This document shows, piece by piece, positions 4,965 to 64,000 of a DNA stretch of 64,000 nt (positions are counted from its first letter, which is position 1; each line of letters opens with the position of its first letter). The translations under genes were made by a program, and so were the position numbers. A model generated the notes under the pieces. That model was not told where the DNA came from. It saw nothing but the letters and a program-made list of their open reading frames with translations, and ran no database searches. The stretch is from the NCBI GenBank assembly GCA_907163375.1, contig CAJQUW010011299.1, positions 124,001-188,000 of the forward strand. The letters run 5' to 3'. This stretch comes from Prostheceraeus crozeri. Its lineage: Eukaryota; Platyhelminthes; Polycladida; Euryleptidae.

Positions 4965-6235
4965 AATCTTCGAGAAGACGATTGAGATCATCAAGATAGC
5001 CAATGCTTTCAAGAGTATGACAACATCTTTTAGAGAGCGATATAGTGCTTCAAGAAACGATACTATCATCAAGAGAACGAATATGTCTCCAGGAGAGTGA
5101 TGGACGATTCCCCTTTCAAAAGGACAACACCTGCTTCAAACAATGTCACTGAGAGGACGATGCTTTCCTCATGGAAAAATTCATGTCATCAAAGACTACA
5201 CCGTTTAGAAACCCAGGGCATATTCAAGAGGACCCTGATTCTATCTTCAAGACAACGAAGACACTTCTATGAAATGAGAGTGTCTTCAAGAAAAATTGAG
5301 TGTTTCCGAGATAACGATGGTGTCTCCAAGATAACGATAGCAACATTTAAGTGAACGATTGTGTCTTCAAGATAACGACTGTACCTTCAATATATCGATA
5401 GTATCTCCGAGCTGACGATAGTGTCTTCAAGATAACGACTGTACCTTCAAGATAGCGATAGTGTCTCCGAGATAACGATAGCGACATTTAGGTATCGATT
5501 CCGTCTTCAAGATAACAGTAGTGTCTTCAAGATAACGACTGTACCTTCAATATATCGATAGTATCTCCGAGATGACGATAGTGTCTTCAAGATAACGACT
5601 GCACCTTCAAGATAGCGATAGTGTCTCCGAGATAACGATAACGACATTTAGGTATCGATTCCGTCTTCAAGATAACGACTGCACCTTCAATATATCGATA
5701 GTGTCTCCGAGATGACGATAGTGCATCCAAGATAGCGATAGTGTCTTCAAGATAACGATAGCGACATTTAGGTATCGATTCCGTCTTCAAGATAACAGTA
5801 GTGTCTTCAAGATAACGACTGTACCTTCAATATATCGATAGTATCTCCGAGCTGACGATAGTGTCTTCAAGATAACGATTCCGTTTTCAAGATAACAGTA
5901 GTGTCTTCAAGATAACGATGGCGACATTTGGGTAACGGTAGTGTCTCCGAGATGATGATAGTGTCTCCAAGATAACGACGGTGTCTCCGAGATAACGATG
6001 CTGTCTTCAAGATAACGATAGCGACACTTGGGTAACGGCAGTGTCTCCAAGATAGCGATAGTGTCTTCAAGACAGCGATGGTGTCTCCGAGATAGCGATA
6101 GTGTATTCAAGATAGTGATCTTGTCTTCAAGATAACGATAGTCTCTTCAAGATAACGTTAGTTTCTCCAAGATAGCGACAGTGTCTTCAAGACAGCGATG
6201 GTGTCTCCGAGATAGCGATAGTGTATTCAAGATGA
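4965..6235. repeat. Minisatellite, ~20-bp unit, with higher-order repeats
   Basis: Roughly sixty head-to-tail units with consensus GTGTCTTCAAGATAACGATA. They are degenerate at the left edge and clean from about 5290. Groups of several variant units recur as blocks: a run containing GGTATCGATTCCGTCTTCAA followed by a unit with ATATATCGATAG appears near 5491, 5661 and 5781. This indicates higher-order duplication. The unit is not a multiple of three, so the repetitive open frames crossing it on the minus strand are by-products, not protein evidence. It begins about 325 bp beyond the YPEL stop codon. Confidence 0.92.
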
Positions 6236-6559: not shown

Positions 6560-9500
6560 TCAAGGATTGGCCGGTGGAGAAGACGGAGGCATAGAGCCAC
6601 CATCAGAACTAGCTGAGCCGGCAGTGAAACTGTCCCAGCCATTGTCTTTGATCAGGTGGGCCAGTTCAATGATATACTTGCCCTCCTTGTATTTCTGACT
6701 GGACTCGAAAGCATGTTCATATTTCCAGCCCAACGTTGTCTTGCAACAATCGCAGAATATGTCAGCGACTGAATGCAAGCCGGTGAGAAGGATGCGTTCC
6801 TCAGGAGAGCCACAACCAACATTGACAACACGATCGAAGAGATACGCCCTTCCTTGAGCGCCCTGGAACGACTTGGAGATGAGATCAGCATGGCGAGCCA
6901 AGTGTGCACGACAATGTACGCATGAATATGTTCGATCATCCTCGGTGTTGAGATACACCTGTAGAGCAAATTTGATCATTTAGTCAAGCACAAGGCAATT
7001 GTTAAACGCACATACATAGAATATTGTAATTCAGATAAAAGCACGGATTTTCATAGATTATACATTATGTAGATCAATGTTTCTCAACTTTAATTCGCTT
7101 CTGCCCGCAATTATTGAAATTTCTTCTAGTTGCCCAACAGAATTAGATTCATCTGCGCGCGCGGCTTCGGTTTCTAGAATGGAAATATCGCATATGTTCT
7201 TAACATTGAAATTGCACATCACCAAATTAGACAACTTGCTTATTCAGTGTTTTTCGAATGGATAATTCGTATATTGCCTACTACTGGAAATGACAAACAA
7301 TAAGCTGTCAGCCAGTTTTAAACACCAGAGCCAGTGAGTGAGTGGCGTGCGTTGTGTGATATCACTTCAGACACACCAAAACACACATCGCTGTCTAGCT
7401 ACTATCAGTGTATGCAGTGAGGAATGCTGAGAAGAGGATGGTGAAATCATCAGGTGAACCAATTTTCATGCGCCTGCTATTTTCTTTAATAATGATCGAA
7501 AGGACCGATATTATGGAAAAGCTTGCACACAATGATCTGAATTCTTCGAATCTGCAGCAATCGTGGCAATAGAAGCACTTTGATGGAATTTACAGTAATC
7601 CGCAAGCGACGCACGACTTTTTCCTACCTCTGTAAGGTATTAGGAATTCCTTTTTGCCCACTTACTAAGTTCCAACGTGCGCCATCGTTTTAAATTAGTC
7701 CTCGATTCTAGTGAACTGAAAGAGTAAAACAATCTAATTCTATGGGTTACCCCTCCACATACTTTTTCCAAATGTCATATGTAGGTCATTGAAAAAACGC
7801 GACATGTGAGGCAAAGTCTAAAAAGCATTTTACGAAAACTTCGAATTATCACCTCATTCGAGGTTTGAGCTCCGTGCGTCATGTTAAGGTTGGACTTGAT
7901 GATTTGACATTAAAGCTTTCATACACGCTTGCAGAGGCTGCTTTACACTGGCAGTTCACGTGCTGTGCAGTAGATGACGAAAATGACCTCGTTATGACGT
8001 TTATCGCAATTTCTTCTAATAGAGAACGTGATGTCAGTGTTGCAGAGGCAGTTCAGGTACAATTTATTTATTTTATTTTATTTATTCAGTACATTTATAT
8101 TGCGCTGTACCCAAGTGGCCAAGTTCAGCGAATAGACCGAAGTTCATTTCTTTGCACCGTACTGGAATGATTGTCATCTGATTGGTTACTCTTCTATATC
8201 TAATCTACCAGGGGCGACCGCAGAAAAACAGAGCTAGATAGTGAGTTGTTAGCGTCCAACAAATCTCTAGCAATTGTTAGAGATTTATAAGTCCCGAACC
8301 GCATGGTGCACACAGAAGAGTTGTTGGAGTTTCGTTTCAATTACTGCATGACAACCCCTTTGAGTGACAGTTTGTACGGAAAGGAACTCCGTTTTTAGCA
8401 TCAGTTGCTATGTGATAAACTGAAACTCTATAAAACGCATTAACCTTCTGATGTTGGCAAAGTGTGTAACAATAACGATTGTGGCTGCTGATCATAGGCA
8501 ATGTATGACACCATATAAATCCAAAACTATAATAATAAAAGACTAGAACGGCCATTGACATTGAAGATGATAGTACGTCGTGGACATGCTATGACACCGG
8601 GGTGACGATTATTAAATAGTGTATGTAGTGTATATTTTTCAGTATACATGAAAATCGAACAGATCCGAGAGAGTTACAAGCAATCGCTATTCGTTTATGT
8701 GTTGACTGCCTGCGTGATAAATCAGTGCTATCTTTATGACAATGAAACTTTCTAATAATCAAGTCAAAGACAATTGCGGCATGAAGCATAGATTTATAAA
8801 TAGCACATGTATATTGACGGAGATAACTAGTTCCCCAATTCACACATGCCCACTATATCAGCAACCACATAGCAGAAACACAATGAGTGCTGTTGTCATT
8901 GCCATGCAGCGCATAATAACAGCTATTGTTATTCTTCTTTTCAATGCAGTGGTCACGAAAGCTTTGCGTAGGCAAGTGCACGTGCTTTAGGGAAGTCATC
9001 GATCTCTTGCTTTTAGATCAATGCATAAAGGTGGCACGATTTCTAATTTCGGATCAGTCGGATGACAAAGCGAACGTCATTTGCAATGAATTCACTACTG
9101 AGTACAAGGCAACCAACAATAGTGGCCTCTTGATGTTTACAGAGACCAATCACAGATAGGATGTCATAAAGTTAGCGATCACTAACCAAGACCGTAACCA
9201 AGACTGACTTCACAGTCCTTCTGTGCGCACCCCACAAGGGTTAGCGAGGTTGTTAGTGATTCGTTAGCCTAGCAATGTTTCTGTGCAGTCGCCCCAGGTC
9301 TTGTCACAGTAACCTGACAGGTCATCGTCCATCATGTCAGCGCATCAGGTTTTTCTCTTTACGTTCCATGTGCCATTTTGGTTGGACAGTGCTGACTTGC
9401 TGTTCGTAATGCAAATTAGTTGCTGTACATGCAGTTTTGTTTCATGGCTATATCATCCTATGTTTTAATTACATGACGAAAGTGTCACTCGCCTGCTGCA

Positions 9501-29627: not shown

Positions 29628-29766
29628 GTAAGGAATACTGTATTTATGATATATTGTGCACCAAGGAATAGATAAGATAAGATATATGAATCCATGCACA
29701 CATCTGAAGAATTAGATTTGATCGTAAGACAGCGTAGCTGCTATGTTGTGTTAGCAGGCATAGCTG

Positions 29767-30871
29767 TGAAACAAACGCGTTAATGAACGATTGTTATTTA
29801 GGTTATTACTTACCGATACTGGAAGGTCCTGCGTATTGGTAGCGTGGCCCTGAAGATACCGCTAGAGAATGGCACCAATCCCCAATATTTGAGTTACGCC
29901 CAAACTTAGTGAAGCCTATAGATGTAACCCATAGTGTATCGATTTCCACCTCCAAGCCGATACTAGGAATATCCACCAATGCGAATGCAACTAGCAATCT
30001 CAAGGACCAGTTACACCCAAACTTAGGAAAGTCTATAGGTGCAACTAAGGAATATCAATTCACCACTAATTCAATAACTTATAGAAATGTCCGCCAGTCA
30101 GAATCTAACTATCAATTCCAATGACTAGTTACACCCAAACTAAGAAAAGTCTATAGGTGCAAACTAAGGAATATCAATTCACAACTAATTCAATAACTTA
30201 TGGAAATGTCCACCGGTCAGAATCCAACATCAATTCCAATGACTAATTACACACCCAAACTCAGAAGAGTCTATAGGTGCAAACTAAGGAATATCAATTC
30301 ACAACTAATTCAACAACTTATGGAAATGTCCGCCAGACAGAATCCAACTATTAATTCCAATGACTGGCCTAGTTACACCCAAACTTAGAAGAGTCTATAG
30401 GTATAAAACTATCAATCAAGTCCGACGGAATTTATTTTATGATCTCTATATCATGTATATTTATTATCCTATTATATGTTATCCATTCGTGAGAAGGAGA
30501 GCATAATCAACTATAATTCTACAGACTTACTTACTCATTTACTTATCCTTCATAGGAAATAGGTTCATAACTCACCAATAGATTTTGCTTGCACGAACAC
30601 AACCTTAAGTCTCTCACACAAGCGAAACTACTGCACGGAGCTTACTCCTAAATCCAAAATTCAAATTTCATTTCAAATCTTAATTTACAATATTCTTATT
30701 GGTCCACAACTACAGTGTGGACACTTCCTATTGGTTAAAAATTTACTTAAATCATTTCGAAAACTAATCTAATTAATTTAATATCCAACCGTTATATTCC
30801 TATACTTAAAACACATGCTGAGTTCAAACAAAAATAAACAACTAGTAACTAATTTAATATGGACCGTTATA
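29767..30871 (-). repeat. 3' LTR (left copy)
   Basis: 1105 bp, nearly identical to 37651-38748. It contains about four tandem units of roughly 120 bp (29,890-30,400), each with GTTACACCCAAACT, GTCTATAGGTGCAA and AATATCAATTCAC. In element orientation the LTR starts TATAACGG next to the polypurine tract and ends GTTTCA. Confidence 0.93.
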
Positions 30872-30888
30872 CTTCTCTTCTCCCCCCC
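30872..30888 (-). other. Polypurine tract
   Basis: On the minus strand this reads GGGGGGGAGAAGAGAAG and abuts the 3' LTR. This is the expected primer for plus-strand DNA synthesis and fixes the LTR edge. Confidence 0.85.
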
Positions 30889-31090
30889 ACGAAGAAGAAT
30901 CGACCAGATTCTCATCACAAATACTATCATATATTTTCGGTTTTTATCGTCCGAAGAATGCACGATTTTAAGAATATTTTATTTTCTAGGTTATTACATA
31001 ACATTCAAGGACAATTCCAGGATAATAAAGGATATTCCAGGACATTCCCAGACTGCGGTTACCTAAAGTCCGTAAAAATCATAATGTAGA

Positions 31091-32125
31091 CTATAGCGGG
31101 AATACTCTTCGAAAATTTTGTTCAACTATATCACGCAGAGTATTCTCCGCTATGCTCCGGCGCAAGGAGATCCTCGAAATGACAGAATCAGTTCTGGTCG
31201 GATACCGTGCTAAGTGCGGTGCGTCGGTTTCTACAAGCAACCGTTCTATTGGTATCGCTCGCAGAGTCTGATTCTTCGGATCATTTCGCCTATTGGGATC
31301 ACTGTCCACTAGAATCGGAGCGACTGAAAAGTACATTCGCGGGAAGTAGTCGGCGAACGATCGTACTATATGCCGGCCAACGAACGTGCAATGTAAAATC
31401 ATTTTTACATTGCTGTTCACCGTATATAGGAGAACCTCGGCCAAGCGTTGATGTGCCTCGTCTTCTCCCCACTCCCTCTCTCTGCAATGCAGGATCAGGG
31501 GCAGATGGAGTTCCTCGGCCAATTGTGCTTGATCCGCTAAGGCGTGGCACTGGATATCGAGTGAGATGTTCCACTTCATATCCAGGCCAGTCTCACCGAT
31601 CGCGCGGACATTTCCCCGTTCCCGGATATGTCTTCTCAGTCTGGCTTCCAAGGTTGGTGACCAATCCTGAGCATGGCGAGGATGAAGGCCCAAGGATAGG
31701 AGAATATAGACTTCAGGAAAATCTTCCTGAATGTCACTTTCTCCCCACAAGGAAACCTTATCCCTGATGTCTACCATGGCAGACATCAATGAGATCTCGT
31801 TGTGCCATCTCATTCAAGGGTACCATTCTGTCTCAGCTCTCCGACAACTATCAAATAGGTGGATATGCGAATCACACCTCCAAATCGCACGCGGACTATC
31901 GTCGATCTGATTCGCGATAGCCGGTGGTAGACGTCTCTTGACCCTCGGTGAGATCCGCTCTACATCTCCTTCGGGGTCTTGCCTTTCCAGGGATAGCTTC
32001 CGCCCCGGCAAACAGATATAGATGGTCTGATGATAGGAATCCAGAAGATTCCCACGGTCAGACCGCCCATCCGCTGGCGACGCTTCTTGCCCCCTGTCCG
32101 ACAGACTCCATGAGATCAGGATCGA
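31091..32125 (-). CDS. TatD-family metal-dependent nuclease ORF inside the retrotransposon (one in-frame TGA)
   Basis: A single minus-strand frame runs from after the TGA at 32128-32126 to the TAG at 31093-31091. It is broken once by TGA at 31816-31814. All motifs expected for the TatD metal site are present in order: CDSHIHLFD (HxH, near 31,867), GLHPRH, AIGETGLD (Glu, near 31,594), LILHCRE (His), MILHCTFVG (His) and LLVETDAPH (Asp). The C-terminal VEQNFRRVF is also typical. The catalytic part is about 290 residues, full length for the family, with a basic leader (SPRVKRRLPPA). No ATG lies in frame before HxH, so it may be expressed by splicing or as part of a longer product. TatD proteins are TIM-barrel DNases/RNases; the closest animal type would be TATDN2-like. 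GC content here looks higher than in pol and the LTRs. I do not know such an ORF as a standard part of Ty3/gypsy elements. Confidence 0.85.
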
Positions 32126-32600
32126 TCAACCCCCCTGGCCTCTTCCTCACTGACACTGACTACGTTCACCGAACCGATAACCTCCTTCTCACTTTCCTCT
32201 CTTCAACTTATCCTGGCGTGCTCTCATTTTTTTTTGGTTTCTGACCTGCTTTGGTTCGAGGTTTTCCTTCTCTAGGTCTCGGTGAGTACGATATAATTTC
32301 AAAGCTTGCCTAGCGGGAATTGACCAGTGATTAGCGAGACTCTCAATCTTATTCCCATAGTCCTCCATCTGATGTTCATTGGCCTCTTAAAGTGGCCTCT
32401 ATAGTCGCTTGGTTAATAACGGGCATCTTTCTCTCATCCTACTGATGTCAGGTTTTTGTGGCATGTCAATACTTACGAGTAAATATTCCACGACGGCGTC
32501 TTTGCGATTCATATTCTGAACAAGAAAGAACATTTATTTCTACTTCCGCTCGCGATTTCGGGTACATCATCACTACGTAATTACGTATCTAGTGTCGTAA
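32126..32600 (-). other. Spacer between pol and the TatD-like ORF
   Basis: Broken basic and acidic frames occur on the minus strand: KPRTKAGQKPKK, KRGK and SVSEEEARG. They could be a disordered N-terminal extension of the TatD-like protein in other frames. No known domain was recognised. Confidence 0.35.
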
Positions 32601-35600
32601 AAACTTATCATCCTCACTTGTAGATAATATATCATTTCCGTCTTGATTGATGATTTCTGTCTCATTTATATCTATTTCTTCTCCAATTCGTCATTGTAAA
32701 CATAGTTTCTTGTTGAGATTCTGACCAGGGTTTTAGTCTGTCTAACATTAAACTACCTAATACTTTTCTTCCATGTTTAATTTCACGTATTAGGTAGGTA
32801 TCATCTGAATATTTCTTTCTCTACTTTCCATGGTCCCAGTCCAAGGTCTTGTAAATAATTCCTAACTTTTTCCTTCATGTTAGCGGTTTCTCAGAAACAT
32901 TACCTTGTCTCCTACCTCGTATCGTTGGTCACTTGTCGCTTTTTTACAATCATAATTACTGTTTTTGAATTTGATGCTGTCTAGTGCATTATTAGCTGTT
33001 GCGTCCCAAATATTCATCAATGTCTCTTGCAAATCATAAACATGTTCTGAGGTCTCCTTTTCCGATACTGTCTGATAGTCCAAGTTCCGAAATCAACTGG
33101 TAATCTCATTTCTCTACCAATAGATTGCTGCGGAAGGGGAAAATCCCGTTGTTACAATGTGTACTAGATCTATATGCCCACAGACAATATGATAATGTTA
33201 AGTCCCAGTTTTCTCTATCAGATTCTTCATGTGACATCATCATTTGTTTTCACAGTTCTGTTGAATCTCTCTACTCCACCATTCCCCTGAGGATGGAACG
33301 ATGTCGTTCTTGACTTCATCATTCCCACCAGGTTTACACAGTTCGCTAAATAATTTTGATTCGAATTCTTTTCCTTGATCACTATGTATTCGATCAGGAA
33401 CTCCATGACGACCAAATCCATTCTCGTAAAAGTGCTTGAGCTACAGTTAAACTAGTTTTATCTGGTATTGCAATAGCTTCTGCCCATTTAGTAAAAAGGT
33501 CAACCATCGTCAATATATATTTATTACCTCGCTTAGTTTTGCGTAGAGGTCCCACTAAATCAATCTCGATACACTCCATAGGTTTTCCGACCACGATAGG
33601 TGTCATTGGAGTTCTGATTTTTTGGTATTGGTTCCTTTGAAAGTAACGCATATCTCGCAATCATTCAGAAATGTTGAGACATCGTCGCGTATATTTGGCC
33701 ACCAAAATCTTGTTCGTAATTTGTGATATGTTTTGTCTCGACCTAAATGTGAGGATCCCACATCACTGTGACATTTTTGTATCATTTTCAGTCTTTCTTC
33801 TTTTGGAACTATTATTTTCTTATCTTTGCCATCTATTTTATATAGAATATCATCTTCCACAATTAGCATTTCCCATAATTTCATTATTTGTTTGATTTCT
33901 TGGGTACAATTTTCTAATCGTTTAGAAGATGGTTTGTCGTTCGAATTTCGGTTCTTAACCCATGAAATTATTTGTGCGAGATCTGTATCCTCCTTAGTTC
34001 TTGCTTTCATTTCTTCTATTCTGGAACCTGCTGTCCATAAGTTATAAATCATTATGTCGTCATCTTCATCCAATCTTTTAGAATTGTTCTCCGACTCGTT
34101 GGCTATTACAGTCGGAATCCTGGAGAGGCGTCAGCATTTTTATGTGAAGTGCCTGCTCTGTAGATACAATCAAAATTGAATTCTTCCATCACTTGTAGCC
34201 ACCTCGCCAAAATTCCTCTTGGTTCTTTAAAACTACGTAGCCATTCCAGAGCTTTATGATCTACCCTTGCGATAAATTTTTTTCCCGATAGGTATACATT
34301 GAAGTAATCCATAAATGTAACCAAAGCTAACATCTCCCTTTTCGTTGGTGCGTAATTGCACTGGCCCCTGTTTAAAGATTTACTGGCGTATGCTATGACT
34401 TTTTCATTGCCGTCTTCTTGAATTTGGGATAGCACAGCACCCATAGCATATCCTGAAGCATCAGTGTCTAATATAAATTTGCCGGCACCCTCTGAAAAGT
34501 CAGGCATTGTCAGAATAGGTGTAGACGTTAGTAAATTTTTTAGTTCTGTGAATGATTCTTGGCATCTTGCCGTCCATATAAATTGGCCCTCTTTTTTTGT
34601 TAATTCATTCAATGGTCGGGCTATATGTGCGAAATTCCTGATAAATCGACGGTAGTATGATGCTAACCCCAGAAATTCCCTTACTTGCCTAGCCGTGGTA
34701 GGTTTTGGCCAGTGTTTAACTTTTTCAATTTTTTCTGGATCTGTTTGATATCCCTTCTGGATTTACAATATGTCCAAGATATTTCACTGTGTCCAATCCC
34801 CATTGACATTTTTTTGTATTAAGTTGTAAATTTGATTCTCTCAGTCTCTGTAACACTAACTGAATGTCAGTTAAATGATCTTCCCACGATTTACTGAAAA
34901 TGATAATATCATCTAAATACACAAGACAAATCTTTCCGGACAAACCTCTGAGTTTGTCGTCCATCATTCGCTGAAATGTGGCTGGTGCAGAAGATAGTCC
35001 GAAGGGAAGGACATTAAATTCAAAAAGACCTTGTGGGCAAATAAATGCTGATTTCTGTTTGTCGTTTTCTGCTAGGGGTATCTGCCAATAGCCCGATTTT
35101 AGATCTAAAACGGAAAAATGTTTGGCTCCACACATGGCATCCAGTGCGGTGTCAACTCTGGGTAAAGGATATGAATCATATTCACAGGACCTGATTCAAT
35201 TTTCTGAAATCTACACAGAACCTTAGAGTGCCGTCTTTTTTTTGAACTAGCACAATAGGACTCGCCCATGGACTGTTGCTGTAGGATATGACGCCATGTT
35301 GTAGCATTTCTTCAATTTGTTTATCGACTTCGGCTCTTTGATATGGAGGAATTCGTCTGCACGGTTGTCTTACAGGTTTCTGCGTATTTGTATTTATTTT
35401 GTGTTCTACTCCGATGGCTCGTCCCAGAGGTTTCCCTTCTTCCATAAAAATATCATAGTATTCTGAAAGCAATTCATTGAGTTGTGACATTTCCTTCACG
35501 TTTAACCTGGCGTTTTGGTTCACGATCGTATTAGAGTTAATATGACTTATATCTTTGTCTTCCGTTACATCACTAGATCTTGTTTGAATTCTAAATTTTC

Positions 35601-36354
35601 CATATCACATGTAGATGATATTTGTTCGAACTGACCGATGATTTGATTTTGAGAATTATGTCCTCTGTGCTGTTATTTATGACTGATATCATAATATCCT
35701 TGTTTTCTACACATGTCAGTACAGGTAATAATGAAATACCTAATTCATCGCTTTCAATCGATTGTGTTATCATTCCCGTTTTTGGTTCTATCAGTTTACC
35801 TTTAAATCTCAATCTCCCTTTCACAATGTGTTCTGTTTTTGGTTCTATTACCGTTTTATCTTCAATCCCGATTTTGATGACTTCTACTTCTTTGACATTA
35901 CGCCTTCGAAGTGGCAAAGATACTCCTGTATCCGGGAATGTCAGTATTTTAGCTTTCAGATTTATAATAGCTCCGTGATCTTCTAGACAATCCATTCCGA
36001 ATATCAACTTTGCTGACAAATTTTCAGCGACTAAAAATTTTTGTCTGATTGTACAAACTCCAAATTTACAAACTACTTCTGTCAACCCAATGAGGTGAAC
36101 TTTTTCGCCAGATGGTCCTAATAATTTGGCTGGTGGTGTAAAGGTATCATTGTTTCTTCATCTATAACATCGCGGTTACATACACAATAATCTGCACCTG
36201 TGTCTATCAAAGCTGTTATTTTATTGTCACCAATCCAAACATCCACTAAATTAATAGAGTCCCTTTTTGTGACAATACCGGCGATAGGACGGGACTCTTC
36301 TACCGCCTCATTGCGTTTCCCATGGGCAAAATCGAGCGACGTGCCCTTTTTCAA
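32601..36354 (-). pseudogene. Ty3/gypsy pol (protease, RT, RNase H, integrase), frame-broken
   Basis: Minus-strand blocks, in order: protease active site ALIDTGADYCV (36,200) and the flap-side FGMDCLEDHGAI (36,000); RT from 35523 (SPWASPIVLVQKKDGTLRFC, then VLDLKSGYWQIPL) with catalytic VYLDDIIIF near 34,915; RNase H ILDTDASGYAMGAVLSQ, KREMLAL and VDHKALEWL (34,480-34,250); integrase zinc finger HSDVGSSHLG...CEIC; catalytic core IEIDLVGPL (Asp, 33,570) and FHPQGNGGVERFNRT (Glu, 33,290); and C-terminal YEVGDKVMFL and DRLKPW. These blocks lie in alternating frames, so several one-base changes separate them. The first pol block is in the +1 frame relative to gag and overlaps its end. The domain order defines Ty3/gypsy. 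Confidence 0.9.
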
Positions 36355-37624
36355 AACAATTGTAGCATGTAATCTCCGAATTAGTTTTTCCTAATTGTAC
36401 GTTTGCTTGGATGGATCCAGCGTTTTGACTAGTCCTAGATGCACTCGATGGTGCTGTCGTTTCTAGAACTTCTATGCCCGTAGATGTCGTGTAAATATGA
36501 TTGTCTCCTAGTTGTGAGTTATTTGATCGATTTCCAACATTGGAAGTATCCTGATTATTAGGAGTTCGAGTCATTTGCATATCCCCTCTGACAATCCGTG
36601 GGACTGTTGAGGTTGGAATGGCATTTGACCATCTAATTCGATTTTTGTTGGAAGTATTCTGAAAACGCTGATTTTCGGATTGTTCTCCCCACAATCCGCC
36701 ACTTATCGGCGTAGTTTGGCGTACCATATCAGGTTTATAATTTCCTGATTTACTAGATGGACAATATACTGCGATATGTCCCAGACCATTACATTTGAAA
36801 CATCGTGTATTCGAGTTTGTAGATGGCAAGAATTGAGTGGGTTTAATCGTGTTGGTTCCAGCAGCTTTATCAACACGTTCGAAGCTATCGACTATATCCA
36901 AATATTCTGTCAACGAATTTGGAGGAAAACGGCTCATTGATAACTTCACAATCTCGACTAGTTTCCCTTGCCATCAAGTGTTGAGAACTTTCTGTTCGAG
37001 TCCTGTTTCATTAAGCTCTGTAAAAGCTTGGGCTCCTATTCGTAAAAGAGCATCGGAATAATCTCTAATATTTTCCCCTGCTTTCCTTCGCCTATTATCA
37101 TATGACGTCTCCGCCTCGACTGAAGAGCGGAATGTTGAGAACCGACATTTCAAATCGCGTACAACTTCTTGAAATGTGTAAGTTCCAGCTCTGTCTACGA
37201 CAATTTCATTTGGGCGTCCGGATGTCTTAACTAATAACAAACGTAACTTTTTGTTCTCAGAGAGACCATCTGTGAGAACATTGAATGATTTGATCCAGCG
37301 TTCAATATCACCAGATCCGTCATATTTTTGTAAGCAATGAATCTCATCAGGAATTTTCTCGTGAGATCTTTTGTCGTGCATGACTTGGTTGAGTTTATCT
37401 TCAATTTGACTAATGCTATGTTTTAGATCCGTAGAATTGTGCAATTCTTCAGGTTTCAACCAGCTGGTATGAGGACTTAGCAGTGGTTGCATTTTCTGTT
37501 CATTAATAACCGGATCGTCAACATCTAGTATAGATTTTTCAACCCAATTCAAGAAATTACTCTCCGATACGTGTGTAATAGTATCGTTTACAAAATAATT
37601 GTCGTTTACGGCTCGCTGTTCCAT
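36308..37624 (-). pseudogene. Ty3/gypsy gag with two zinc knuckles, one in-frame TGA
   Basis: The frame starts at ATG 37624, 13 bases inside the primer-binding site, and stays open to 36308 except for TGA at 36976-36974 in the same frame. The N-terminal part has the retrotransposon capsid character (VRDLKCRFSTFRSS, RKAGENIRDYSDALL). The C-terminal part has two CCHC knuckles, CFKCNGLGHIAVYC and CYNCFEKGHVARFC, for RNA binding. The product would be about 438 residues if the TGA were read through or is an error. Gag packages the element RNA in cytoplasmic particles. Confidence 0.87.
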
Positions 37625-37636
37625 AATGGTTCGTTT

Positions 37637-37648
37637 CCGCTGCCACCA
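37637..37648 (-). other. tRNA primer-binding site
   Basis: On the minus strand, two bases after the 5' LTR end, the sequence is TGGTGGCAGCGG. It begins with the TGG expected to pair with a tRNA CCA end. The specific tRNA was not determined. Confidence 0.8.
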
Positions 37649-37650
37649 AA

Positions 37651-38748
37651 TGAAACAAACGCGTTAATGAACGATTGTTATTTAGGTTATTACTTACCGA
37701 TACTGGAAGGTCCTGCGTATTGGTAGCGTGGCCCTGAAGATACCGCTAGAGAATGGCACCAATCCCCAATATTTGAGTTACGCCCAAACTTAGTGAAGCC
37801 TATAGATGTAACCCATAGTGTATCGATTTCCACCTCCAAGCCGATACTAGGAATATCCACCAATGCGAATGCAACTAGCAATCTCAAGGACTAGTTACAC
37901 CCAAACTTAGGAAAGTCTATAGGTGCAACTAAGGAATATCAATTCACCACTAATTCAATAACTTATAGAAATGTCCGCCAGTCAGAATCTAACTATCAAT
38001 TCCAATGACTAGTTACACCCAAACTTAGAAAAGTCTATAGGTGCAAACTAAGGAATATCAATTCACAACTAATTCAATAACTTATGGAAATGTCCACCGG
38101 TCAGAATCCAACTATCAATTCCAATGACTAATTACACCCAAACTCAGAAGAGTCTATAGGTGCAACTAAGGAATATCAATTCACAACTAATTCAACAACT
38201 TATGGAAATGTCCGCCAGACAGAATCCAACTATTAATTCCAATGACTAGTTACACCCAAACTCAGAAGAGTCTATAGGTATAAACTATCAATCAAGTCCG
38301 ACGGAATTTATTTTATGATCTCTATATCATGTATATTTATTATCCTATTATATGTTATCCATTCGTGAGAAGGAGAGCATAATCAACTATAATTCTACAG
38401 ACTTACTTACTCATTTACTTATCCTTCATAGGAAATAGGTTCATAACTCACCAATAGATTTTGCTTGCACGAACACAACCTTAAGTCTCTCACACAAGCG
38501 AACTACTGCACGGAGCTTACTCCTAAATCCAAAATTCAAATTTCATTTCAAATCTTAATTTACAATATTCTTATTGGTCCACAACTACAGGTGTGGACAC
38601 TTCCTATTGGTTAAAAATTTACTTAAATCATTTCGAAAACTAATCTAATTAATTTAATATCCAACCGTTATATTCCTATACTTAAAACACATGCTGAGTT
38701 CAAACAAAAATAAACTAACTAGTAACTAATTTAATATGGACCGTTATA
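37651..38748 (-). repeat. 5' LTR (right copy)
   Basis: 1098 bp, the direct partner of 29767-30871, with the same internal ~120-bp tandem units. Differences from the left copy are mostly one-base insertions or deletions (for example CGAACT against CGAAACT, and CAGGTG against CAGTG). Confidence 0.93.
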
Positions 38749-39035
38749 GCTGTCTGATATTTTTAAGTCGAAATCCTGAGCTTGTCTGTGATCTGTTGCA
38801 TAGCAAGAATTACGAAGGGTGTTTCTCCTACCAATTAGTTGCTTCAGCCGAGGAATCGCATTGACTGATGGTAGCCGGCCCAATTCTCGGAACATTAGTT
38901 CCCGTGCTCATTATTCGATCACAGTTTGCATTCAGGCCTGCCACTCTTCCGGTTTTAACCGGATTTCCGGTTTGTTTCAGACATAACTAAGTAGTGAGAA
39001 AATGTTTTTCCAAGGAACAAATAATTTGGATTTTT

Positions 39036-50980: not shown

Positions 50981-52290
50981 ATGTTGAATTGCATTAATGG
51001 AAAGAAGACTCTACAAGACAAGTATTCGAGAGGATTACAGATCTCCACATTGATGAGTTCGCGGATGAGTCTGACCGAGATTCAATCGACGATGAACGCG
51101 AAATGGCCTCATATTGTTCGAGCAGTAGGAATGAAGAAGTTGATAGCAGTGAATATAGTCAGATACAAGGACGAGACCGGACGCCTTGGGATATTATTCA
51201 AGATGCTACTGGAGCTAGGCGAGGCAGGGCGCCGAAACAAAATGTCTTTTGTGAACGTGTAGGTGTGTCGAATACGTGTGTTGGCACTCAGACGCCTGGC
51301 ATCTCCTTTTGATGAGCGGCTCTTGAATTTCATTGTTGAATGGTCAAATGATTACGCCAATTCAGTTATTGAAAATTGGAATATGACTAAAGACGAACTA
51401 GAGAAATGCATTGGGCTCATTTATCTAAGAGGAGTTATGAAGCAACGTAATTATCCATTCGAAATGCTCTGGTCCAAGACGTATGGATGTCATGTATTTA
51501 ACATGAGTCGTCAAAGAATGCGAGATATCAAGAAATTTTTGAGATTTGATCGCCGACAAGATCACCGCCGTAATCTACAGCATGACTAATTTTGCCTGAT
51601 CTCAACAATTTTGAATCGTTTTGTTACTAATTCTTAACGTTGATATCGTCACTGACAATAGATGAACAATTATTTCCAACAAAACGCGCTGCTGTTTTAC
51701 GCAGTACACTTCAAAACCCAACAAATTCGGGGAAAATTTTGGATTCTGGCCGACGTTCCAACTAATTTTTCATACAATATCAAACCATATCTTGGACGTG
51801 ACGATACTCGGTGTGAATCACTTGCAACTCACGTTGCTGAAACACTTATGGAACGTCTTTATAACAAGGGATACAATGTGACCATTGACAATTTTTTTAC
51901 TTCCAAACAACTGGCCAATCTGGACTTGCTCAAGGTTCGAACAACTATCGCAAGAGCCTACAGCCGCGAATTACCCAACGCCTCTAACTCTGCAGCTTCA
52001 TGACTCGACCGTATTCTACGAAAGTGATGATCTACACAAAGACAATGGATCTACACCTTACGAGGTGCCAAAGAAATCGAAGAAGGTTGTGCATATCCTG
52101 TCAACTCAACAACACGGAGCAGCTTGTCAAGAAAGTGGTAAGAAAAAGCCAGAAACGGTTCTTTATTATAACAACAACAAGTATGGAGTAGATATGCTTG
52201 ACCAAATGTGCCGGCAGTTATCAATGAAGGCTGGTTGTCGTCGCTATGGCCATTGGCAGTATTCAGTGGCGTCGCGTGCTCCCTGACCAT
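50981..52290 (+). pseudogene. piggyBac-like transposase, frame-broken
   Basis: Blocks of the DDE_Tnp_1_7 (piggyBac) transposase occur in order. The N-terminal region has RTPWDIIQDATG and FDERLLNFIVEWSN...CIGLIYLRGVMKQRN and LWSKTYGCHVFNMSRQRM (51,330-51,530). The catalytic domain has RGKFWILADVPTNFSYNIKP, YLGRDDT, VAETLMERLYNKGYNV and TIDNFFTS (a catalytic Asp, 51,885). After another frame change come VPKKSKKVVHILSTQQH and NNNKYGVDMLDQMCRQLS (catalytic Asp pair, 52,185). Frames change at about 51,250, 51,590-51,660 and 51,960, and a stretch after 51,589 appears deleted, including the first part of the catalytic core. TTAA target sites and TIRs were not identified. Confidence 0.88.
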
Positions 52291-60400: not shown

Positions 60401-63400
60401 TATATAAATGAACATAAGTGTAATTGGTAACTGCCATTGGCCTATGTGATTGTTAATTTAAAGAAAAAGGACTTTGAAGGTGTAAGTTATTGATTAGCCT
60501 CAAAGTCCTTTTTCTTTCAATTGTACACAGGTGCCTCAATAGATGTATAATATGCAATGTACACTACACCATAAAAATAGCGTAGGACACCATAATTCCA
60601 GTCTTTGATAAACATTCGTTGTATCACTAACCTTGACAGAAAACATTTGCGGTATAACGTCAGTTCACTGCGCCCTCAGGATTGGTCAGACTGTTTGGTG
60701 CATATTCATTTTAGGATATACCTTACATACAACGTTTGTCGATTTACGTAGTTAAAATTTACGGTATGATAGGCCCCTAGTTCATTCTGAATGCCGAATA
60801 ATGTACCTTATTAATGTGAGTTTTAGCACATTATCGCATTGAAATTGCGATAGTTCATGAATGAATTTGAGGTCATAATAGAACTTTTGAACCGAAGCAT
60901 CTGTTTCTCTTTTTTTCTTTTTGTATGCAACTCCCATTGCTTCGAATATCAACTCCTTAGTCAATATAACCTCTTGACCACGTAAATTCTACGCCTAAAC
61001 CACTGTATAGACTTACTGTATAGATTCTCGACATGCGTAAAATCGATTTTCGACGTATTTATCTACGTATGTAACTCTAACTACTTCAAATATCAACTCC
61101 TTGGTCAATAAAACCTCTTGCTGAAGCCAATTCAACGCCCCAATCCCATTTGGCTTATTCCAGCTCTCTAACTGTTGGTGAGACATTGACTTACTGTACA
61201 GATCCTCGACATGCGTGAAATTCGAATTTGCACGCATCTATATTTTAGTATGTAACTCCAACTGCTTCAAATATCAAGTACTTTGTCAATATACCGGTAA
61301 CCTCTTGCCGAAGCCAATTCAACGCCCCAATCCCATTTGGTTTATTCCAGCTCTCTAACTGTTGGTGAGACATTGACTTACTGTACAGATCCTCGACATG
61401 CGTGAAATTCGACTTTGGACGCATTTACCTCTTTGTATGTATGGTGAGAACTGTATGTACTGTTTCGAATATCAACTCCTTTTTGGACAACCAAATTTGT
61501 TTTATTGGAGATAGCAAATATACCATTATATTCTTATTTTTCCAGGAGTTATTGGTTAGATGCAGATGGAGATATTTGTTAAATGTAATCATTTTTGTCA
61601 TAAATTCAAATTTTTGGGAATAATTCGTGAGATTCAACAAAGGAGTGCGGACAACTGTATATTTCAAGGTAATATATAAATTAATCCCTCGAGACTTCGG
61701 CTCTCGGAATTTATCTACTTATCACCCTAAATATCCTTGAATATCTTATACATAACACATAAAAGATAACAGATAAGTTATCCTAAAACATGACAGAAAA
61801 ACTGTGTCCTAATTTCCATGCATTACGTACATAACAAACGGAAATTTTGAATATCACACTTTGATTCGCGAGAAAGCTATGCGTTAAAATAGATATTGTA
61901 TGATATTTAAAAGCATTATTCTATAACAAAATCCAGTCTTCGGCAGTCGTTTGTTATGTTGATAATTCTTTCAAATATCATACGATATCCTATACGTATA
62001 ATTGCTAATTTTTTTTTATAATTTATCTCGATCAACAAACTATGCACTCGCCCTTTGGGCTCGTGCATAGACATATTGATCTCGAGAAATGCAAGAAAGA
62101 TGGATATTTTGCACTAGTTGTGTAAATAACTATTAAAGAGATAGGAAAAATGAATATACCAGTTAAACAGACATGGTTTAACCAGTGTAAACTTAACATC
62201 GATTTACAACATAATAAGTGATATCAAGAATGATAACCTGTGGTCGTAGACATCGTACACAAGTCAAGTATTTTATTTTAGACATCGTACACAAGTCATG
62301 CATCAGGGACGACTCGAACAGATATAGGCGTTAGATCTAGTTTTAGTAGTCCCTGTCATGTATTATCTCTTTATAATTTCAAAATGCAATGACATTCTAT
62401 GCCAATAATTCAAATACCGATACACGTACAGTGTCCAACACATAGCTTCCTGTAATTGGCGAAATCTCACCTGCAAAGTTGTGGCTGCCAACTTTCGATA
62501 TTTCGTACTGGTTATCAAAGATACATCCTCGACTTCAGCCAATAATCCAACCTTTCTGATGGCATCATGACCTCGAATAAAATTCCCCGCTTTATTTTCG
62601 AAGATATACTTTTTCGTCAGAGTTGTGAGCCTTTGGATAACCGGAATAATTTCCTTTGGAAACAGTATCGGCACGAACTTATTACACTTCCCACGAACGT
62701 AAACCAGCTCCAGTGACTCCAGGGTTTTTCTCTCTTCTTCGCTTAGTTTTTTCCACTCCTCGCGGGCATTTTCTTTCCATTTCTCACGATCATCCCAAGT
62801 TTTCTTCTCGAGTTTGGCAACCTCCGAGGAACGCCTTCTATTAAACAAAATCAAGAAAGCTAGGGTTACTTCCTTCAGAAGTCTGGCGTTTTCCGTCGTT
62901 TGTTCGGTTGATACGATTGTGTCAGTCATATATTCTTTCAACTTGGCTATATCAACCTTTTTCGGCAAAGTTTGTGGCATTCCTGACTGAGAGCACTTCA
63001 TGTAAACATGGGCATTAGTCATAAGGGGCGTTATTTCGTAATGAAATAACTTAAAAAAAGCTTTCACCTCCCTGGCCTTTTCAAAATCTAACGTCCGGTA
63101 GGCCTCGTTCTGAATTTCTTCTGCTACTTGAGAAATGGTTTGTCCAAGTCGTTTAAGGGCAGATGGTCGCTCCATTGATCTATCCGTTTCATTGGATGAC
63201 AATTTAATCTTGTAATTAAACATCTTGATGAAGGCATTTTTCATAAGTTTGAATTTTGCGGGCTGAATCAACTCCGTATATGAAATTTCCGGATTACCTG
63301 CGAAATCTCTGACGAATTTAAGAAAGTTACACAAGCTGCGCACCTTCTGAGAAATAGAAAAATACTTATTCATGCCCTTCTTTAAAATCATACTTGATAT

Positions 63401-64000
63401 CAATTTCAACAAAGCGTTGTCATTTTTTGCTATCTCGGAAAGGGGATCTGTTTTCATTCTTTTGAAGAACATATTTTGCTCCTCCGTGAATGACAAATCA
63501 GATAAATCGATCAATGAGACCCTTCGTACTTTCGTTTCCTTCCTTACTTCAATTGCCGGACATACATGTCTCCACATTTCTGTTGACGAATAGTATCCTG
63601 CGCACTCTTTACACATCGCATAAGAATCCAAATTACGAGATATATCAATATTGTTTGCTGGTCTTTGTACAACTATCAAGTGACCCCCATGCTTCAACAC
63701 TTTTTGGTTGTTTATATGGTTTCCCTTGTTTCGTAACAACTGTGTCGATTTACGCTTACCAAGCGATCCTTTAAGAAAAGTGTTGATATGCTGTACCTCT
63801 TTTTCTCGGCTGTGCTGGCTGTTTAGGTGACGCAAAAAGCTTGTGCTAAGAACGAACTTTTGGCAATATGGACAGCAATCTTTTTTATCGAATTTCTGCC
63901 GTGGTTTATTATTACACCCTAAAACGACAATTGAACTTTTGTTTTCGACATCTTCAAAGCACTGAGTTCGATTATCATTCAAGCTGCACTCAGTATCTGT
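57447..64000 (-). CDS. Zinc-finger tyrosine-recombinase-domain protein, five exons, 5' end beyond window
   Basis: Exons (minus): 64000-62471 (open to the edge, no ATG seen), 60365-60184, 59792-59758 (35 bases), 59141-58984 and 57509-57447 (stop TAA). Every border is GT-AG and all phases fit, giving at least 655 residues. The N-terminus has a C2H2 finger (CPYCQKFVLSTSFLRHLNSQ, then H) and a second CKEC...WRHVC cluster. The C-terminal half has tyrosine-recombinase motifs: LFNRRRSSEV (Arg I), STKYRKLAATTLQ (Arg II; the usual HxxR His is Thr) and, across the exon 1-2 junction, NHLGHTLNVHERFYRL (LGH His, Tyr nine residues later). A last block, TRWTKDQTMYLKMKF...RTWKDVTDK, resembles the tail found in related animal proteins. 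Phage-type recombinases cut DNA with the Tyr; Crypton transposons use the same fold. With four introns and a motif set complete except His, this may be a domesticated or multicopy host gene. Function unknown. Confidence 0.85.
57510..58983. other. Intron 4 of the recombinase-domain gene
   Basis: AT-rich. Two weak copies of an ACTTACTGTAT...TTCTCA...ACGTGAAAA-like block (57,708 and 57,912) resemble the tandem block in intron 1. No exon seen. Confidence 0.6.
60460..60517. repeat. Perfect 18-bp stem hairpin
   Basis: AAAGAAAAAGGACTTTGA (60460-60477) is perfectly complementary to 60500-60517, with a loop of 22 bases. It lies in intron 1 of the recombinase-domain gene. It is not followed by features of a known small RNA. 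Confidence 0.85.
60780..61670. repeat. Tandem ~180-bp repeat in intron 1 of the recombinase-domain gene
   Basis: Blocks containing GACTTACTGTACAGATCCTC and CATGCGTGAAATTCGA recur at about 61,010, 61,186 and 61,375. The segment AACGCCCCAATCCCATTTGG is shared by the two right-hand copies. On the minus strand each copy has an open stretch with KELIFE followed by a variable V/M-G-V-A/T-Y segment (also near 60,950 and 61,480). This may be a decayed duplicated exon or simply repeat sequence. Confidence 0.7.
61671..62362. other. Intron 1, exon-proximal part; nested hairpins
   Basis: Contains palindromic blocks (for example TATGCACTCGCCC with GGGCTCGTGCATA near 62,040-62,070, and ATGATATTT with AAATATCAT near 61,900-61,985). 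It may be a small MITE. No exon recognised. Confidence 0.4.

Follow-up and report, generated by a model that had tools for sequence, protein, structure and literature searches.

What is a TatD-type nuclease domain doing inside a long terminal repeat (LTR) retrotransposon, and is it kept there by selection? The question is raised by a stretch of 64,000 nucleotides from the flatworm Prostheceraeus crozeri (contig CAJQUW010011299.1, positions 124,001 to 188,000; the whole stretch is called the window here), for which an earlier note, made from the sequence alone, had pointed out a TatD-like domain on the coding strand of a Ty3/gypsy element, between the integrase and the 3′ LTR and 220 bp from the latter. 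That placement holds, and the domain matches the TatD family profile (PF01026) with an E-value of 2.8e-35. Comparison with other copies leaves us close to certain that TatD is a conserved C-terminal domain of Pol in a Ty3/gypsy-type lineage and that the stretch in the window is a degraded copy. This reading draws on sequence data only, from chosen loci of one genome.

The organization of related copies carries this conclusion. Twenty loci were examined closely, picked non-randomly from three length classes within the single genome. Integrase pieces lie upstream of TatD in the same sense at 19 of the 20 (about 6 kb away at locus L017), and the remaining locus, L024, is TatD alone. Two copies, L011 and L020, have reverse transcriptase, RNase H, integrase and TatD in a single open frame, of 1816 and 1780 amino acids respectively, which gag overlaps in the −1 frame; open frames of at least 1700 amino acids occur in 7 of the 150 PF01026 matches listed for the genome. 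Because TatD lies within the same frame as reverse transcriptase, RNase H and integrase, it is a C-terminal polyprotein domain and not an env-like third gene, so that the separate gene slot envisaged earlier does not describe these copies. Pfam returned no envelope family on the open reading frames (ORFs) of the window or on the linkers of L011 and L020 (a result that covers no search for transmembrane segments) and no DEDDy exonuclease in the slot; at its default threshold it gives TatD alone in the window, and the slot of related copies yields TatD plus one weak amidohydrolase match below its cut-off. Within the stretches fetched, direct-repeat pairs flank pol and TatD at 12 of the 20 loci, leaving uncounted a pair at L026 that lies 2.4 kb beyond TatD, and the best pair at each locus is 93.7%–100% identical, which indicates that several subfamilies moved recently. 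By sequence there are four subfamilies: W, with the window copy and L016; A and C, whose TatD is 62–65% identical to that of the window; and B, at 32%.

The whole genome assembly (2.05 Gb, 14165 contigs) was searched with PF01026 (150 of 229 candidates scored, 150 matches listed) and with the TatD protein of one copy (146 of 320 candidates scored, 151 matches reported); merging 150 rows from each search gives at least 161 distinct TatD loci on 144 contigs. A further query was the integrase core of one family member, for which the best 150 of 21151 candidates were scored and 150 of 151 rows used. Among the matches listed, TatD lies downstream on the same strand of 18 of the 22 integrases at least 90% identical to the query and of 48 of the 55 at 70–89% identity (66/77 for all those at or above 70%); the figure is 33/55 at 57–69% and 1/18 below 57%. 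TatD is on the opposite strand to integrase in 0 of 150 and upstream of it in 2 of 150. Viewed from the other side, 61 of the 161 TatD loci have no upstream integrase among these matches, including the window copy, L021, L024 and L025; L021 and L025 do hold integrase pieces, so the integrase matches listed miss some. Since other copies carry the domain in the same place, it belongs to the Ty3/gypsy-type element, as had been proposed, and the outcome that would have undone the proposal, copies of the family without the ORF around a lone carrier, is not what this genome contains.

At least two TatD loci, L001 and L039, are not borne by elements. The latter, which we take from a motif to be an exon of host TATDN1, is only 23–30% identical to element TatD. 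L001 (contig C8477, 906246 bp) has a bacterial-looking TatD, with neighbouring ORFs that we presume to encode rho and a BPL_N-type protein; the assembly has here probably taken in sequence of an endosymbiont or a contaminant. At C10044:35122-58937, seven partial TatD matches stand about 3.8 kb apart; the one fetched (L038) is 89% identical to B-type element TatD, and the group is a tandem array from an element fragment, possibly amplified or domesticated.

Turning to the window copy, its 240-residue TatD ORF scores 122.4 bits (curated cut-off 27) over positions 54-252 of the 253 in the profile, and three related copies score 124.7–132.5 bits. The HxH strand is encoded further upstream without a change of frame, beyond an in-frame TGA, and a profile search of the genome contigs spans positions 2-252 with 1 TGA. 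All six site residues (H, H, E, H, H and D) are found, the HxH preceding the TGA, and the domain has the TIM-type barrel of the TatD fold. What had been described as a full-length domain with all of its motifs is thus correct as to the motifs and incorrect as to the frame: the motifs are complete, yet they do not stand in one open frame. The TatD of L016 is 99% identical over the remainder and reads otherwise around the TGA, showing that the window copy is damaged at that spot. Pol in the window changes frame 7 times between about 36085 and 32880, by ORF coordinates, and the survival of the motifs next to a broken pol was once offered as evidence of constraint; this argument falls away, because the TatD frame and the linker of the window copy are broken too, and we likewise rejected any inference of selection from this copy by itself. 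The GC content of TatD in the window is 0.495 (0.53 at third codon positions, GC3) against 0.34–0.41 (GC3 0.29–0.38) in the pol pieces, and in one copy from each of the three other subfamilies it is 0.52–0.53 against 0.44–0.49. The contrast formerly read as a sign of capture is therefore real, but as it is largest in the window subfamily it is weak evidence of recent capture. The parts of the element are as follows.

29767..38748, minus strand: whole Ty3/gypsy-type LTR element, ~9 kb, from its LTR pair, target duplication and pol domains
38748..38752: target site duplication AGCTG (or GCTG) on the 5′ side of the element, in flanking sequence
37651..38748, minus strand: 5′ LTR with ~119-bp internal tandem repeats
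37631..37648, minus strand: candidate primer-binding-like site, TGGTGGCAGCGGAAACGA, separated from the LTR by 2 nt, suggested by position
36974..37624, minus strand: gag ORF, 216 amino acids, by homology to gag ORFs of related copies; no Pfam match
36308..36949, minus strand: gag zinc knuckles (zf-CCHC), PF00098, E 4e-8
35591..36085, minus strand: protease region, placed by its position and by inter-copy homology; no Pfam match
34725..35523, minus strand: reverse transcriptase split over two frames, PF00078, E 7.4e-35 (34725-35135), and inter-copy homology (35182-35523)
34106..34612, minus strand: RNase H, PF17917, E 4.1e-31
33603..34073, minus strand: integrase zinc-binding domain, PF17921, E 5.2e-20
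33227..33660, minus strand: integrase core in two frames, rve, E 1.6e-8 (33394-33660), and inter-copy homology (33227-33421)
32665..33092, minus strand: integrase C-terminal region in three frames, homologous to related copies over 32880-33083
32012..32664, minus strand: linker between integrase and TatD, several broken frames in this copy
31814..32011, minus strand: start of TatD including the HxH strand, terminated by TGA
31091..31813, minus strand: 240-residue open frame of TatD holding site residues E, H, H and D, PF01026
30872..30890, minus strand: polypurine tract adjoining the 3′ LTR
29767..30871, minus strand: 3′ LTR
29762..29766: target site duplication AGCTG (or GCTG), 4-5 bp, on the 3′ side of the element, in flanking sequence

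The LTR pair with its target duplication and the order reverse transcriptase, RNase H, integrase are those of a Ty3/gypsy element. Only 3 substitutions and 8 indels separate the two LTRs over ~1.1 kb, which makes this a recent insertion. Assembly error may lie behind the excess of indels and, if real, would explain part of the frame changes in the window pol as well. Tandem repeats of ~119 bp are present in both LTRs (29968-30365 and 37852-38287), and the repeat pairs of L016 step similarly, at 118-119 bp.

Selection on the domain is better judged from the other copies. Of 21 TatD rows, which span four subfamilies, 18 have all six metal-site residues; those besides HxH, whose class definition follows the available part of PMC10085689, are invariant or nearly so in the alignment. 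Within subfamilies, single-step variants were counted against the majority codon with bootstrap ranges, omitting L024 and L025 (broken), the window copy and L016 (sole in its subfamily) and leaving uncounted the codons more than one step apart (2 in A, 1 in B). Subfamily B (5 copies, 264 codons) has 49 synonymous and 10 nonsynonymous variants, a ratio of 0.060 (0.022–0.114), and C (3 copies) has 12 and 3, a ratio of 0.076 (0–0.245). Pairwise sums of nonsynonymous relative to synonymous differences (pN/pS), some of them based on few changes, are 0.068 in B and 0.076 in C for TatD, 0.103 and 0.092 for reverse transcriptase, 0.067 and 0.211 for RNase H, and 0.000 and 0.301 for the integrase-core piece; in B and C TatD is as constrained as other parts of Pol. 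Comparison between subfamilies meets saturated synonymous sites, and no dN/dS is claimed there. The selection test between copies that the earlier note had proposed thus finds clear purifying selection in two of the three countable subfamilies, B and C, and TatD is retained under selection in some subfamilies at least, as seen in its presence, position, frame and site residues and in the low pN/pS of these two. The site residues other than HxH follow the general description of the family.

Several observations weigh against this reading and are taken together here. Subfamily A (9 copies) has 24 synonymous and 47 nonsynonymous variants, a ratio of 0.577 (0.357–0.981) that is near relaxed; its pairwise sums are 0.474 for TatD, 0.175 for reverse transcriptase, 0.359 for RNase H and 0.509 for the integrase-core piece, so that TatD in A is loose, resembling integrase and RNase H and looser than reverse transcriptase. 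Also in A, L018 has Y in place of one site H, and the HxH stretch is out of frame in two copies, L024 and L025. Forms without TatD exist as well. L034 and L035, 98.8% identical to each other and otherwise ~96% identical to L020, share a ~970-bp deletion spanning TatD, the 3′ LTR being retained; L030 and L037 (92.6% identical) have both lost the TatD core, their peptide ends showing the linker joined to the last TatD residues, and an L020-like LTR (81%) follows the junction in L037, none having been found in the stretch fetched for L030. Each of the two deletion forms is represented by two copies, which implies that TatD is not needed in cis and that TatD-less forms multiply. These are the four fetched from among the 22 integrases of the 57–69% band without a listed TatD, and as all four do lack it, that band is not merely a listing artefact. 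Finally, a branch with support of 99 in the unrooted integrase tree, in which no weight should be placed on the partly out-of-frame window row, sets W, C and A apart from B together with the TatD-less L029 and L031–L033.

These four distant copies gave no match to TatD (L032 is partly masked), and L036, whose integrase is 99% identical, ends after the integrase with no TatD within 3.1 kb. The TatD slot of L029 and L031 (two frames) contains GDSN...GxN...DxH motifs like those of SGNH hydrolases, and the first motif is broken in L033. An SGNH-like domain was not confirmed by Pfam (no match), by the PDB (best E 0.13, for a piece beginning after the GDS motif) or by AlphaFold2 (pLDDT 42.7).

It is informative to consider the origin of the domain in light of these trees. 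In a tree of 31 rows that excludes L001, P0050, P0064, P0086 and P0220, some of them flagged for length or make-up, the six element TatD rows group together (support 100/98); in a tree that includes those five, B branches outside W, C and A. The integrase tree would fit one gain before the subfamilies split, if its root lies on the branch of the sisters; it would also fit a gain that was later replaced, or two separate gains. The best tree does not join element TatD with eukaryotic TATDN2-like proteins, rows that we take to be such from motifs and not from their source names; a single clade of the two has a p-value of 0.257 in the approximately unbiased test (p-AU), so that the link to TATDN2 suggested earlier is possible but has no supported clade behind it. 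Judged by name or general look, the top protein-database matches listed for the ORF in the window are bacterial, the best being 42% identical over 71% of it, and in a quick tree the window row joined a long branch, P0115, a placement that we do not trust. The two sets of protein-database matches hold the best 120 of 672 and the best 120 of 7519 and were limited in length, so that full-Pol fusions could not appear in them, and our impression is that the database has few animal sequences. Among 1683 candidates of ~597-1900 amino acids from the protein database there was no pol-TatD fusion; 4 carry other TatD fusions, which are presumably tRNA-synthetase–TatD proteins, judging by their Pfam accessions. 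Viral contigs gave no match for TatD, and of 8 pattern matches for reverse transcriptase none was confirmed.

What the domain does for the element is a more tentative matter. TATDN1 and TATDN3 are described, in the available part of PMC10085689, as 3′–5′ exonucleases acting mainly on single-stranded DNA and as apurinic/apyrimidinic (AP) endonucleases on double-stranded DNA; E. coli TatD has also been described as acting on RNA, and TATDN2 has been tied to R-loops (accessible portion of PMC12709183). An ancestor of the subfamilies probably gained a class II (HxH) TatD behind its integrase, in what would be a single acquisition. The domain would be synthesized as part of Gag-Pol, enter the particle and be either released by the protease or left on integrase; once delivered with Pol it would meet the products of reverse transcription, where it might work in the 3′–5′ direction and trim 3′ ends of cDNA or template RNA that are single-stranded or mis-extended, or might nick abasic sites, and integrase would thereby be given clean ends. 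We prefer end trimming or abasic nicking because other LTR elements took up a 3′–5′ exonuclease of a different fold behind pol. Judging by the activities published for other TatD enzymes, a role in processing nucleic-acid ends, while reverse transcription proceeds or afterwards, is plausible, although we stop short of calling it probable; the explanation as a whole, a selected Pol TatD with an end-processing role, seems to us the moderately probable one. We are rather doubtful of a broader proposal, in which a DNA-repair-type nuclease within the replicase clears faulty 3′ ends or abasic sites of the element's own cDNA before integration, sister lineages have an SGNH-like hydrolase instead, and the end of Pol is an exchangeable socket for enzymes.

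The probabilities that we attach to other explanations do not exclude TatD being a conserved Pol domain. It is conceivable that TatD faces the host, removing the RNA of R-loops in the manner of TATDN2 or degrading host small RNA or defence intermediates, and so aids germ-line expression or escape from silencing. The class II HxH site is like that of TATDN2 and TATDN3, PMC12709183 implicates TATDN2 in resolving R-loops and in the genome stability of germ cells, and the trees do not reject a joint clade; they do not support one either, however, a Pol-encoded TatD would suit the particle more than free expression, and TatD-less forms spread too, all of which makes a host-facing role unlikely in our view. 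We think it no likelier that the domain is an optional passenger of Pol, once useful, shared in trans and now being lost, with TatD-less copies using the TatD of others or needing none. Such a passenger would account for the two deletion forms, for the 22 of 55 integrases at 57–69% without a listed TatD, confirmed in the four fetched, and for the near-relaxed ratio in A, but with ratios of 0.06–0.08, B and C still have TatD under selection, and it does stand behind 66 of the 77 closest integrases listed.

Retention of TatD as a non-catalytic module at the end of Pol, for example for binding nucleic acid or tethering integrase, would agree with its position, in frame behind a linker and the C-terminal region of integrase; we consider it improbable, given that 18 of 21 rows across the four subfamilies keep the six metal-site residues at identities down to 32%. 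The explanation to which we give almost no credence is that a single element captured a host transcript, once only: the GC contrast in the window copy speaks for it, against which stand the 161 or more loci, the four subfamilies, the single group formed by element TatD and the low identity of the presumed host TATDN1 exon. Copy number and shared position led us to reject it. Later insertion of a retrocopy into the element was also considered and rejected; no poly-A tail is visible by eye beside TatD (no search was made for a duplication specific to it), and the domain is common to other subfamilies.

The preferred explanation, a selected Pol TatD that processes ends, has its closest precedent in bdelloid rotifer LTR retrotransposons, whose ORF3 encodes a DEDDy exonuclease or a GDSL esterase (Rodriguez, Kenefick and Arkhipova 2017, PMC5408684). 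As far as the available part of that paper describes them, these elements are alike in having acquired behind pol an enzyme of which one type is a 3′–5′ exonuclease, in sharing enzyme types among lineages and in that its function is unproven. They differ in that the rotifer exonuclease has the DEDDy fold and is encoded by an ORF3, whereas here a TatD barrel shares the open frame of Pol, and in that the env-like and GDSL-like ORF3s show mostly neutral variation within a genome, in contrast with the purifying selection in two subfamilies here. According to the accessible portions of two further papers, plant LTR retrotransposons have extra sense ORFs between pol and the 3′ LTR that are kept in many copies, with other enzymes and hosts (PMC7264820), and orchid Ty3/gypsy elements carry an N6-methyladenosine (m6A) demethylase domain, alike as an extra domain and different in enzyme and host (PMC9289625); neither account mentions TatD in those portions. 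Cellular TATDN1, TATDN2 and TATDN3, bacterial TatD, YcfH and YjjV have the same domain, fold and metal-site residues as element TatD, and the class II HxH matches TATDN2, TATDN3, YcfH and YjjV; unlike element TatD, which groups by itself, these enzymes sit outside any retroelement Pol. Extra enzymes in LTR elements are known, and a selected, Pol-fused TatD in divergent subfamilies appears to be unreported as far as our literature search reached: it found no TatD in a retroelement, judged from titles and the openings of abstracts, with subscription papers and preprints mostly outside its coverage.

With TatD, the replicase repertoire of retroelements gains an exonuclease/AP-endonuclease fold, and the exonuclease acquisition of the rotifer elements has been repeated here with another fold. 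The natural TatD-less forms let the effect of TatD be studied by comparing variants. Furthermore, TATDN2 annotations in invertebrate genomes may be remains of such elements, a question for which a figure legend on Hox clusters in the giant squid paper (PMC6962438, seen in part) provides a lead only.

Elsewhere in the window, an array of repeats with a 20-bp period occupies 5286-6165, and a Yippee-type ORF, which probably represents a gene of the host or a retrocopy, lies at 6560-6979 on the minus strand (PF03226, E 1.7e-10). An intact ORF of 539 amino acids at 62363-63982, minus strand, has two Pfam rows, both below their cut-offs, and may be, as a guess, the recombinase of a DNA element. Transposase remains at 51662-52003 on the plus strand (DDE_Tnp_1_7, E 4.3e-7) are presumably of piggyBac type.
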